Source: Phyllobacterium phragmitis
GTDB taxonomy: Bacteria > Pseudomonadota > Alphaproteobacteria > Rhizobiales > Rhizobiaceae
Assembly (NCBI RefSeq): GCF_002980495.1
Contig: NZ_PVBR01000010.1
Location: 1 to 64,000 of the forward strand
Direction of reading: 5' to 3'
DNA: 64,000 bases
Shown: positions 20,749 to 45,107 of the stretch, in pieces
Numbering within the stretch: the first letter of the stretch is position 1
How the letters are laid out: every line of letters begins with the position of its first letter
The notes under the pieces: model-generated
Told to the model about the DNA's origin: nothing
The model's database searches: none
Seen by the model: the letters and a program-made list of their open reading frames with translations, nothing else
Program-made: the position numbers and the translations under genes

Positions 20749-20764
20749 CGAAGCTTGCGCGAGG
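20749..20764 (-). promoter_or_regulatory. recurring flagellar upstream motif, flhA copy
   Basis: Gene-sense CCTCGCGCAAGCTTCG, 36 bp before the flhA start codon in the fliQ-flhA gap. It matches the fliF copy (33970-33985) at 15 of 16 positions. Confidence 0.7.
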
Positions 20765-20784
20765 GATTTGCTCACAAACGCTCC

Positions 20785-21051
20785 TCAAAACCCCTTTTCG
20801 ATGCGCGAATAGGTGAGAAGCGTGAATGCGTTGATCTGCGCTCCGACGAATGGCGCGGTAAAGGCCAGGACGACGAATATCACCACGATCTTCGGCACGA
20901 AGGTAAGCGTGATTTCCTGCACCTGCGTCAGCGCCTGGAAAAGCGCAATGCCGATGCCCGCGACCATCGCGGCCAGGACGGCAGGACCGCTGGCGGCGAG
21001 AATCGTCCAGATCGCCGAATTGATGATATCGAGCGCATCGGCTTCGTTCAT
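20785..21051 (-). CDS. fliQ: flagellar export apparatus protein
   Basis: Small export-gate protein of 88 residues with two membrane helices (AIWTILAASGPAVLAAMVAG and TFVPKIVVIFVVLAFTAPF) joined by ALFQALTQVQEITLTF, the family core. It follows flgD by 21 nt and ends 71 nt before flhA. Confidence 0.95.
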   Translation of the reverse strand: MNEADALDIINSAIWTILAASGPAVLAAMVAGIGIALFQALTQVQEITLTFVPKIVVIFVVLAFTAPFVGAQINAFTLLTYSRIEKGF

Positions 21052-21072
21052 CGCCCGCCCCTTTCGCCCAAC

Positions 21073-21483
21073 TCAGCTTATGGTGACGCCGGTCGTGATC
21101 GCCAGTTCGCTGCCGTCGGCAAGCTTCGCCACCATGCCGTCCTGCAGGATGCGTACGGATTCCACTTCGCCACTGATCGTTCCATCGGCGCTCGTGACGG
21201 TGCGGCCGATCAGACCGTCGGCCTGGGAAAGCGAGAAACTGCCAAGCAGTTGCTCAAGCTTGCTGTTCATCTGAACCGCCTGCTCGACATTTGAAAACGT
21301 CGCCAGCTGCGATACATATTGTGTCGAATCCATCGGCTCTGTCGGATCCTGGTTCTTCATCTGCGCGACAAGCAGTTTCAGGAAGGACTGATAATCCGCC
21401 GATGCCGCACTCGCGGTCGTGGAAGTCGTGGGCGATGTGTTGGTGTTCGTCGTCTGGTTGGAAACGCTCGGTGTCGTCGTCAT
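21073..21483 (-). CDS. flgD: hook capping protein
   Basis: Hook assembly scaffold, 136 residues, the short form usual in this order. The defining block YQSFLKLLVAQMKNQDPTEP with MDSTQYVSQLATFS lies near residues 31-68. A Thr/Ser-rich N-terminus fits an exported protein. The start overlaps the flbT stop by 4 nt. Confidence 0.95.
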   Translation of the reverse strand: MTTTPSVSNQTTNTNTSPTTSTTASAASADYQSFLKLLVAQMKNQDPTEPMDSTQYVSQLATFSNVEQAVQMNSKLEQLLGSFSLSQADGLIGRTVTSADGTISGEVESVRILQDGMVAKLADGSELAITTGVTIS

Positions 21484-21938
21484 GCCATGGCCTCCGAAGG
21501 CTGGGTCAGAATTGCTGGTTCACATCCAATACCGCCGCCGTCCATGATCCTTGCCTCGCCGGGATAAAGGCCACGAAGGGTTTTCAGCGCTTCGAATACA
21601 CGGCCCTGGTGCACGAGTTCGTCGACGAGCTTCAATCCTTTCAGGATATCGGCATCCTCGAACGTGTTCAGCGTCGTCTTCAGCATCTTCTTGAATGTTT
21701 CGCGGGCTTCCGCGCCGATGGACGGATTGATGAGCATGATCTGGGCGGCGAAATAAAGCTGGCGCAGCGGCGTCGTCGTCTGCTCGGGCTGCAGGACATG
21801 GCTTTCCAGAAGAAAGGTGGCGTCGTTCAAAAGCTCGAGGGAAACCTTACGATCGGCGCGAAGTACCGCGCCATTGATGTAGATCTTCTCTCCCGCACGA
21901 AGCGAAAGACGAATGGTGTTTTTAGACGCCGGTGCCAT
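21480..21938 (-). CDS. flbT: flagellin translation regulator FlbT
   Basis: FlbT, 152 residues, beginning MAPASKNTIRLSLRAGEKIY with the family phrase NGAVLRADRKVSLELLNDAT. In Caulobacter FlbT binds the flagellin leader and limits translation. In Brucella and Sinorhizobium it also controls flagellin. It sits between flaF and flgD. Its likely target here is the hairpin-bearing leader of fliC (34933-34995); this is inference. Confidence 0.94.
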   Translation of the reverse strand: MAPASKNTIRLSLRAGEKIYINGAVLRADRKVSLELLNDATFLLESHVLQPEQTTTPLRQLYFAAQIMLINPSIGAEARETFKKMLKTTLNTFEDADILKGLKLVDELVHQGRVFEALKTLRGLYPGEARIMDGGGIGCEPAILTQPSEAMA

Positions 21939-21940
21939 AT

Positions 21941-22285
21941 CTAAAGACTGTCCCTGATCGTGCGGGTGATATCGATGATGGAATCATAATCGTCGGATTG
22001 GCCCTGCCTTATCCGTTCCATTTCCTTGAGAATGAAAATGCCGATGGAAATGATCGCAGCCTTGAGTTCCTCCGGCAGTGCATTTTCGGCGCTGCCGAGA
22101 TCCTCGATCAGCGTCGTCCACAGCCGCATCGTGAAATAGCCGGCGTTGATGCCTTCCCGGGAGGAGGCGCCATGTTCGCGCGCGGCCAAGAGCAGATCGA
22201 TGGATCGATCGAAGAGCAGGCCCTCGCGCTCCTTGGCGCTTGCCGCATCTTCACTCATCACATCTTCATAGCGGATTTGATACAT
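21941..22285 (-). CDS. flaF: flagellin biosynthesis regulator FlaF
   Basis: FlaF, 114 residues, with the characteristic phrase LLLAAREHGASSREGINAGY and TTLIEDLGSAENALPEELKA. In Caulobacter FlaF works with FlbT in coupling flagellin synthesis to assembly. It lies 2 nt before flbT and 75 nt after flgL. Confidence 0.93.
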   Translation of the reverse strand: MYQIRYEDVMSEDAASAKEREGLLFDRSIDLLLAAREHGASSREGINAGYFTMRLWTTLIEDLGSAENALPEELKAAIISIGIFILKEMERIRQGQSDDYDSIIDITRTIRDSL

Positions 22286-43453: not shown

Positions 43454-44178
43454 CACGCTTTCGAACCAAGCGTCTTGACGGCTTCGGTGAGCATGTTTTC
43501 CTGCTGCCGCAGGAGCGCATCCACCTGCTCGAAGGCGCGGCTGACGCTGATGAGCCGTGTCATCTCGGTCACGCCGTCGACATTGGAGCCTTCGATCGCA
43601 CCCTGTACCACGCCGACGCTGACATCATCGACCACCGGCTGGGCCGGAACATTGGGAATGACGGCGGAATTTCCCGCATAGGTCAGCTTGGCGTCGGGCG
43701 CGATCGAGAAGAGCCCGATGGCGCCGACCTGTGCACCGTTCTGATAGATCGCACCGTCGGAGGAGATTTTCGGTGCGCCGCCGTTCGGATTGATGATGAG
43801 AGGCTGGCCGCCCGCATCGAGCACCGGATGCCCCATGACGGAACGCAATTCGCCCTCCGGCGTCATCTGCATGCGACCGTCGCGCGTATAGACCTGTCCC
43901 TGCGGCGTGGCGAGCGACATCCATGCCTCACCCTTGACGGCAACATCAAGGGGATTGTCCGTCTGGGTGATCGGGCCGGATTCGGTGCGGATGAAGCTCT
44001 TTCCGGCCGATGCGAAATGCACGTCGTCGCTCGCCTTGCTGGAAACGAGCGTATCGAATTTCGTGCCCTCGCTGCGGAAACCCGGCGTCGACATGTTGGC
44101 GACATTGTTCGCGATGGCGTCGAGCCGACGCTCAAGCGTTATCTGCGAGGAAAGCCCGACATAGATGGAATTCTGCAT
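43453..44178 (-). CDS. flgF: flagellar proximal rod protein FlgF
   Basis: Rod subunit, 241 residues, of the FlgF/FlgG type: MQNSIYVGLSSQITLERRLD, NVANMSTPGFRSEGTKF, and C-terminal MTRLISVSRAFEQVDALLRQ. The ATG at 44178 is chosen since the protein then starts as usual; the longer frame overlaps the gene before it. Confidence 0.95.
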   Translation of the reverse strand: MQNSIYVGLSSQITLERRLDAIANNVANMSTPGFRSEGTKFDTLVSSKASDDVHFASAGKSFIRTESGPITQTDNPLDVAVKGEAWMSLATPQGQVYTRDGRMQMTPEGELRSVMGHPVLDAGGQPLIINPNGGAPKISSDGAIYQNGAQVGAIGLFSIAPDAKLTYAGNSAVIPNVPAQPVVDDVSVGVVQGAIEGSNVDGVTEMTRLISVSRAFEQVDALLRQQENMLTEAVKTLGSKA

Positions 44179-44185
44179 CGTAGGA

Positions 44186-44974
44186 TTACCTGCCACCTGG
44201 TTTGAAGGATTGAAGGGTCGTCAGGATGTCGGTGGAAATCCCCACAGACGACGTGCCGCCCAGAAGCAACGAGGCAATCGAGGATGCGCTGCCCATCGAG
44301 GGATTGCTTATCTCGTACATGGCCGTGAAGCGGGTCATGAACTTCGCCAGTTCGTCCGGATCGGAAAGCGCAGAAATATCGAGGCGCTGCTCGATCATCT
44401 GCGCCTGCTTGTCGATATCGGCATAAGACACTGCCGACGGTATGCCGAGTGCCGTCTGCACCACTGTCAGGAGCGCCTTGTCGCCAAGGATTTCATAGGC
44501 ATTGGTCAGCCCCTTGGCCTTGCGCTCGAAATAGAGCGCCAGCCGCACGCCCTCGTTCTGGTCGCCGGCTTCCTCTTCCAGCGTCTGGCGGACATATTTG
44601 TCTACCGTGCCCTGCTTTGCCTGATCAAGACTGGTCGTCGTCTCGCCGAGGGCCGCGAAATCGAATGTGGTGGCCAATTCCTTGTAGCGCTTGTCGGTCA
44701 GTGTATTGGCAAAGCTCGAATCATCGCTCACGCCTTCGGTGAGGATCTTGCGAACGAATGCCTTGGCATAGGCCATGTCCTCCAGACCGTGAGCCTTCAT
44801 GGCATATCTGTAGAGACGATCGTCGGCCATGAAATCGTCGATCGATTTCACCTTGCCGATATTCTCCAGATAATATGCGGTTTCCCGCTCGACCAGCGGT
44901 TCTTGCGATACCCGCGTCAAGGATCGCGTCATGTTGGACGCAATCATGCGATAGCTCGTCAATGTGTCGACCAT
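44186..44974 (-). CDS. DUF1217 domain flagellar protein
   Basis: Protein of 262 residues of the DUF1217 family, found in flagellar loci of Hyphomicrobiales. It is mostly helical (MVDTLTSYRMIASNMTRSLT, YYLENIGKVKSIDDFMADDR). The ATG at 44974 has AGGCAGGGG before it. It heads the DUF1217-flgF-fliI-hypothetical unit and is divergent from motA. The molecular role is not established to my knowledge; export or rod assembly is likely from context. Confidence 0.85.
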   Translation of the reverse strand: MVDTLTSYRMIASNMTRSLTRVSQEPLVERETAYYLENIGKVKSIDDFMADDRLYRYAMKAHGLEDMAYAKAFVRKILTEGVSDDSSFANTLTDKRYKELATTFDFAALGETTTSLDQAKQGTVDKYVRQTLEEEAGDQNEGVRLALYFERKAKGLTNAYEILGDKALLTVVQTALGIPSAVSYADIDKQAQMIEQRLDISALSDPDELAKFMTRFTAMYEISNPSMGSASSIASLLLGGTSSVGISTDILTTLQSFKPGGR

Positions 44975-45047
44975 GCCCCTGCCTCTCGAACTTGCCCCTT
45001 GAATTGCCCTTTGATTGCCAAGCAATGATGGCAGTATCTATCGCCCT

Positions 45048-45063
45048 GGAAGCTTGCCCGAAG
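45048..45063 (-). promoter_or_regulatory. recurring flagellar upstream motif, DUF1217/flgF copy
   Basis: Gene-sense CTTCGGGCAAGCTTCC, 74 bp before the DUF1217 start. It matches the fliF copy at 14 of 16 positions. A partial extra repeat GCTTGCCCC follows at 45067-45075. Confidence 0.6.
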
Positions 45064-45091
45064 CTGGCTTGCCCCAAAGCCACTGCTTCAG

Positions 45092-45107
45092 CACGAGGCA
45101 AGCTTCG
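45092..45107 (+). promoter_or_regulatory. recurring flagellar upstream motif, motA copy
   Basis: Gene-sense CACGAGGCAAGCTTCG, 56 bp before motA. The ten bases GCAAGCTTCG with the G before them are identical to the reference core. It points the opposite way from the copy at 45048-45063, as required for a divergent promoter pair. Confidence 0.6.

Follow-up and report, generated by a model that had tools for sequence, protein, structure and literature searches.

A conserved tandem-repeat box at flagellar promoters of Phyllobacterium phragmitis as a probable operator of FtcR

The flagellar master regulator FtcR/Rem/LafR has been reported for several rhizobia and for Brucella. Its regulon was already known, but it was unclear which DNA sequence it recognises; the literature that we searched gave no box for Rem, FtcR or LafR, although one may have been described earlier. 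According to the account in a review (PMC8429497), Rem activated flagellar assembly and motor genes, and its homologue LafR in Bradyrhizobium drove the lateral, not the polar, flagella and did not need phosphorylation. Brucella, Mesorhizobium and others have only one flagellum, which a further report grouped with the lateral type (PMC6406911). For FtcR of B. melitensis, one study described the motif TGTGGGCA from chromatin immunoprecipitation sequencing (ChIP-seq), with electrophoretic mobility shift assay (EMSA) support at ftcR and betI (PMC9456535). Here we describe a box that preceded flagellar operons in the first 64,000 nucleotides of contig NZ_PVBR01000010.1 of Phyllobacterium phragmitis, the whole stretch being called the window below.

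It was highly likely that this box represented a class II operator-promoter bound by FtcR (Rem/LafR), which would switch the flagellar operons on together. The first-pass annotation of the window had proposed an FtcR box, or a box of another flagellar class, that ties the operons into one regulon. This proposal gained support from conservation, co-occurrence with FtcR, genomes with two flagellar types and an 11-bp repeat within the box. FtcR was encoded in the window as an OmpR/PhoB-type regulator (26300..26983, minus strand; Pfam PF00486 and OmpR-family matches in the PDB) and was very probably the reader of the box, presumably by direct binding.

Architecture and genomic distribution of the box

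The full element, as a consensus over 189 sites, was C[CA]AGYTTCGCRCAAGNTTSG, followed by N5 and a putative sigma70-like -10 hexamer, TANNNT, whose column frequencies were 0.79 for T, 0.97 for A and 0.75 for the last T. Matrix comparison across promoters resolved two 11-bp half-sites in tandem, whose distance from the -10 was fixed. Namely, self-similarity of the position weight matrix had its maximum at a shift of 11 (0.319), with every other direct shift at or below 0.04. The tandem units were plainest as CAAG-N7-CAAG in many flgB and motA sites and as TTCG-N7-TTCG in many fliF sites. Direct half-sites 10-11 bp apart, a fixed phase to the -10 and the lack of a good or recognisable -35 are all characteristic of OmpR/PhoB-type operators. 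The motif itself was genuine, and the case for it was stronger than the first-pass annotation had been able to make. A dyad reading, taken from the fliF loci of Microvirga, was judged less likely, since the direct repeat outscored the dyad over all sites.

The same fixed spacing and missing -35 could also mean that an alternative sigma factor recognised the element with no activator involved. However, at about 18 bp and with its 11-bp repeat, the conserved block would exceed the reach of sigma region 4, the -10 was sigma70-like and the element tracked FtcR, which made such a factor very unlikely.

Six copies of a shorter 16-mer had been listed before, and the window check confirmed all six sites at their positions, each oriented towards its gene. 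Together with the -10, the boxes occupied 33959..33989 before the predicted fliF operon (CTAACTTCGCGCAAGCTTCGCTCGCTATGGT), 20738..20768 before flhA, 26201..26231 before flgE, 41432..41462 before flgB (in the CAAG-N7-CAAG form) and 45037..45067 before DUF1217-flgF-fliI (with a less canonical -10), all on the minus strand, and 45099..45129 before motA on the plus strand. Each was recovered by the window scan and by the genome profile search. The fliF gene, first in its operon, lay at 32196..33929 on the minus strand (PF01514, PF08345). The motA box is given here in a corrected register: the copy listed earlier (45092-45107) was 11 bp upstream of the conserved element, which read TTCGCACAAGCCGCC from 45104 and then CTATTG. 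The distance of 36-74 bp to the start codon did not hold either, as the gaps from the 16-mer were 22-55 bp for the starts used, or 73 bp for DUF1217 if an internal ATG was taken.

The core GCAAGNTTCG, with at most one mismatch, occurred 27 times in the window against 26.35 expected, and the core alone was discarded as evidence because of this chance frequency. The 16-mer with up to three mismatches was found 4 times (2.23 expected). The composite TTCGCGCAAGNTTCG-N4-CTA with up to three mismatches was found 5 times against 0.32 expected, a count reached in 0 of 100 shuffles; it was the addition of the -10 at a fixed distance from the core that brought significance. Across the genome of 5,625,008 bases, the composite with 0-2 mismatches matched only fliF (0), flhA (1), flgE (2) and flgB (2), and at three or fewer mismatches there was no excess (19 matches, 21 in the reversed control).

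A matrix trained only on 50 distinct fliF sites from other genera, though of related species, and excluding the window and its two nearest loci, picked the six promoters listed above and no others in the window, with scores of 34.9, 25.1, 20.7, 18.2, 18.1 and 12.7. It agreed with the earlier claim that the fliC and ftcR promoters were free of the box. The whole-window scan gave no further site, including near a 'vjbR-like' gene, which was not looked at by itself. The same six promoters ranked top when the whole genome was searched with R1, a sequence-only profile of 46 sites (one from the window and several from relatives of the same genus). They had E values from 4e-4 to 0.6 and the seventh match had E=7.4, among the best 150 of 2,761 first-look candidates that were scored.

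The six copies were the strong ones, and a weaker seventh had been overlooked. This box, CAAG-N7-TAAG at 17416..17446 on the minus strand, was found with a matrix built over all genes (described below), where it scored 12.7. It lay 56 bp before flgJ, which encodes a rod-binding protein (16798..17385, minus strand; PF10135). With the fliF-trained matrix it scored only 3.5 as the runner-up of the window, and it was not among the genome-wide profile-search matches. Seven stretches from relatives were examined, and the four with a flgJ homologue all had the box 53-59 bp upstream, at 11.4-19.0; the flgJ box of Sinorhizobium meliloti was weak (9.3, at 123 bp). Counting this box, there would be one box for each predicted operon of the cluster, with the exception of fliC and ftcR. 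An autoinducer synthase gene (PF00765) at 14828-15457 adjoined the flagellar cluster.

Conservation across Hyphomicrobiales

The box was present in Brucella, Phyllobacterium, Bartonella, Mesorhizobium, Microvirga, Bosea and others, while S. meliloti had it before seven operons. Of 569 stretches encoding a relative that a FliF alignment search found, we retained the 80 best as named loci, nearly all of them from Hyphomicrobiales (Paramesorhizobium, Brucella/Ochrobactrum, Phyllobacterium, Bartonella, Mesorhizobium, Microvirga, Bosea and others). With 12 stretches from six relatives and the window they made 93 sequences, a few genomes being present twice. The distance between box and fliF, counted from the CGC in the core, was 51-52 bp in Paramesorhizobium, Brucella-group and Phyllobacterium loci. 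It was larger in Bartonella, at 106-130 bp, and for Mesorhizobium and Microvirga it was mostly 37-55 bp. The fliF upstream regions of Microvirga loci such as L081, L087 and L090 had an inverted-repeat form, CAACCTT-CGCAC-AAGGTT, whereas the form elsewhere was tandem.

The all-gene matrix was iterated over the 300-bp upstream regions of the 93 sequences with a threshold of 12 bits, the training set being the test set. It found sites at fliF in 78 of 81 cases, flgB in 60/62, flgE in 50/70, flhA in 7/7 and motA in 9/9. Reversed sequence gave none at these five genes and one match each at flgF, flgG, motB and fliL. The count for DUF1217 (3/9) was too low since its start was wrongly extrapolated, and the internal ATG was used with the fliF-trained matrix. 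False positions at flgF, fliI, flgK and one flgG came from sequences cut at locus ends; the cut regions were removed before the fliF-trained counts.

The fliF-trained matrix carried over to the other genes: flhA 7/7, motA 9/9, DUF1217 8/9, flgB 52/62 and flgE 30/70. For the 25 remaining flagellar genes it matched 9 of 969 upstream regions (6 fliC, 2 flgG and 1 motE), and for reversed sequence none. Opposite-strand matches occurred at motA (7/9) and DUF1217 (8/9), two divergent neighbours with one region in common; motB had 1/73. Conservation in orthologous promoters was thus borne out upstream of fliF, flgB, flgE, flhA, motA and DUF1217. In some lineages (Bosea, Microvirga flavescens and others; L083, L092, L095, L098, L102, L103 and L107) a box was located 145-198 bp upstream of a fliC-like flagellin gene, which looks as though flagellin has been taken into the class II regulon there.

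The flagellar cluster of S. meliloti, which we take to be chromosomal, belonged to a species absent from training. The class labels of Rem target genes used here follow a review and common usage. In the 85 kb scanned, the seven best matches (E from 6e-6 to 0.04) were at flhA, fliF, orf-motB, motA, flgB, flgE and DUF1217-flgF, whereas the che operon, visNR and the genes for flagellin had none of these seven. The flhA site was within an unannotated gap between fliQ and fliR, and the orf-motB site was about 290 bp before the annotated start. The eighth match (E 0.098) was inside an annotated gene and the ninth (E 0.12) between two flagellin genes on the other strand. This pattern fits the flagellar assembly and motor genes that the review reports as Rem targets (PMC8429497). 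The record used, CP090106.1 (L172/L173), was titled pSymB, yet it was 3.7 Mb long and carried the flagellar cluster; flhA was absent from its gene table.

Upstream of Rem in S. meliloti and R. leguminosarum stands VisNR (PMC8429497), and this LuxR-type heterodimer could be the reader of the box instead. However, a search at E<=1e-8 brought up neither VisN nor VisR in the genome of the window. Matches above 250 bits were limited to 2 of the 22 genomes checked, with 3 more at 75-96 bits, and full-strength boxes occurred in genomes without visNR. Therefore, VisNR was not the general reader, and we consider its role as reader extremely unlikely.

Co-occurrence of the box with FtcR

If FtcR is the reader, then box and regulator should be found in the same genomes. 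We surveyed 199 genomes of the order, using strict filters for the box search and scoring 36 candidates per genome. An FtcR orthologue was found in 54 genomes and a box at E<=0.1 in 59. At this threshold 47 genomes had both, 12 only the box, 7 only FtcR and 133 neither; at E<=0.01 the numbers were 28, 0, 26 and 145. Thus, every one of the 28 genomes whose site reached E<=0.01 carried an FtcR orthologue, and the site was found in none of the 145 FtcR-negative genomes. The 12 box-only matches were weak (best E 0.0115-0.092) and corresponded to about the chance rate for that threshold in 145 genomes. Of 130 sites in FtcR-positive genomes, 73 were within 60 kb of ftcR.

Absence of the box at E<=0.01 from every genome without FtcR is difficult to reconcile with CtrA as its reader: CtrA, which was not itself searched for, is to our knowledge universal in the order. 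The 11-bp tandem geometry was as in the CtrA box TTAA-N7-TTAA (PMC4287350), but the half-site in the consensus of 189 sites was CAAG rather than TTAA. A CtrA site, or a variant of it, was accordingly a most improbable identity for the box.

We also checked 20 genomes (Microvirga, Bosea and others), mostly because ftcR was not seen at their fliF locus. A full-length FtcR orthologue of 240-316 bits was present in 19 of them, and the remaining one had only two partial matches of 110 bits. Other OmpR-type proteins reached at most 67 bits, except in one genome, where a second FtcR-like copy had 207 bits. The receiver domain of FtcR was degenerate, with Glu instead of Asp at the expected phospho-acceptor position. 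Among 73 aligned sequences, 47 had Glu at this position, 12 had Arg and 10 had Gln, and in the DNA-binding domain E195, H197 and S199-R202 were invariant.

Comparison of flagellar types inside single genomes provided the sharpest test. In 15 hand-picked genomes we took about 450 bp (391 bp in one case) upstream of every FliF gene found. The box was present at 6 of 6 fliF genes of the FtcR (lateral) type, which had 48-52% identity, with scores of 14.2-24.2, and at 0 of 13 genes of the other type (28-34% identity), where the best score was 2.6 on the gene strand and at most 5.4 on the opposite strand. In the four genomes with both types, only the FtcR-type fliF had the box. The genome of the window itself had a second FliF/SctJ-like segment (G000:C17:77261-77779; 32% identity over residues 50-218), which may belong to a secretion system.

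Several observations weigh against FtcR binding to the box as proposed. Since the flagellum type and FtcR are inherited together, their co-occurrence with the box alone is no proof of contact. Some FtcR-positive genomes had no match (7/54 at E<=0.1 and 26/54 at E<=0.01), though the filters were strict. The best inverted-repeat alignment of the matrix scored 0.266, not far under the direct repeat. With the all-gene matrix, 20 of 70 flgE upstream windows had no 12-bit site, partly because tblastn chose other rod or hook genes. Class II genes had the site and genes of class III or of the subpolar type lacked it, with the exception of fliC: expected to be class III, it had a site in 6 of 56 sequences with the fliF-trained matrix and in 7 of 56 with the all-gene matrix. 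Finally, the box did not agree with the published FtcR motif TGTGGGCA.

This disagreement, together with the ChIP-seq and EMSA data behind the published motif (PMC9456535), would be explained if FtcR acted indirectly or through TGTGGGCA and the box belonged to another regulator inherited with it. With one mismatch allowed, 9 of 11 Brucella-group loci had TGTGGGCA in the 400 bp before ftcR, 4 had it before fliF, 3 before flgB and 1 before flgE. However, exact TGTGGGCA was absent from the window, these promoters included, and from the 400 bp upstream of fliF, flgB and flgE in 11/11 Brucella-group loci; upstream of ftcR it was found in 1/11. We regard this explanation as quite unlikely, and TGTGGGCA may reflect condition-specific binding in biofilm cells or autoregulation.

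A proposed mechanism and its relation to known operators

We propose that an FtcR (Rem/LafR) dimer would bind two head-to-tail half-sites of 11 bp, C[CA]AGYTTCGCR and CAAGNTTSG, which directly precede a sigma70 -10. The box would stand in for a usable -35, and RNA polymerase would therefore need the bound activator. If TANNNT is the -10, the box would span about -37 to -17, which would put the tandem dimer over the -35, beside the polymerase and near the position of CtrA. The constant spacing to the -10 would position activator and polymerase on the DNA in a way similar to PhoB and CtrA, and the abundance of FtcR rather than its phosphorylation would set the output. With one box each, the fliF, flgB, flgE, flhA, DUF1217-flgF and motA operons, and more weakly flgJ, would be activated together, and flagellin (class III) and ftcR would be outside the regulon in this genome.

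On a wider scale, it was likely that the operator with two CAAGYTTCG half-sites and a sigma70 -10 is the class II promoter throughout Hyphomicrobiales with the lateral-type flagellum. It would have changed very little, even as the inputs above it came to differ between lineages, some with VisNR and some without. It would be the primary target of the phosphorylation-independent FtcR/Rem/LafR, so that TGTGGGCA would not be the main flagellar site. A precise box with fixed promoter geometry would make the regulon readable from genomes, predict which flagellum of a dual system FtcR/Rem/LafR controls and provide a short DNA fragment for settling binding.

The closest described system was the FtcR/Rem/LafR class II regulon of Hyphomicrobiales, with which our locus shared the target operons, the regulator orthologue and the restriction to the lateral-type flagellum; it differed in the operator, for which TGTGGGCA has been published. 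Similar to the PhoB (Pho) box, the flagellar box was an OmpR-type tandem repeat in place of a -35, but its half-site was another one and, relative to the usual PhoB geometry, it was about 3 bp closer to the -10. A published survey predicted PhoB boxes in S. meliloti, and of 33 that had a mapped start 16 overlap the -35 (PMC3616915). Tandem half-sites spaced 11 bp apart were also shared with the CtrA box TTAA-N7-TTAA and with the S. meliloti FeuP candidate TTCA-N7-TTCA described in the same survey (PMC3616915). The 5' end of a full CtrA site was reported 39 bp before an activated start (PMC4287350), and taking TANNNT as the -10 would put the corresponding C of our box at about -37. In contrast to the CtrA and FeuP boxes, the flagellar box had CAAG/TTCG half-sites instead of TTAA or TTCA, and the only matches to it with E<1 in this genome were those at the six flagellar promoters.

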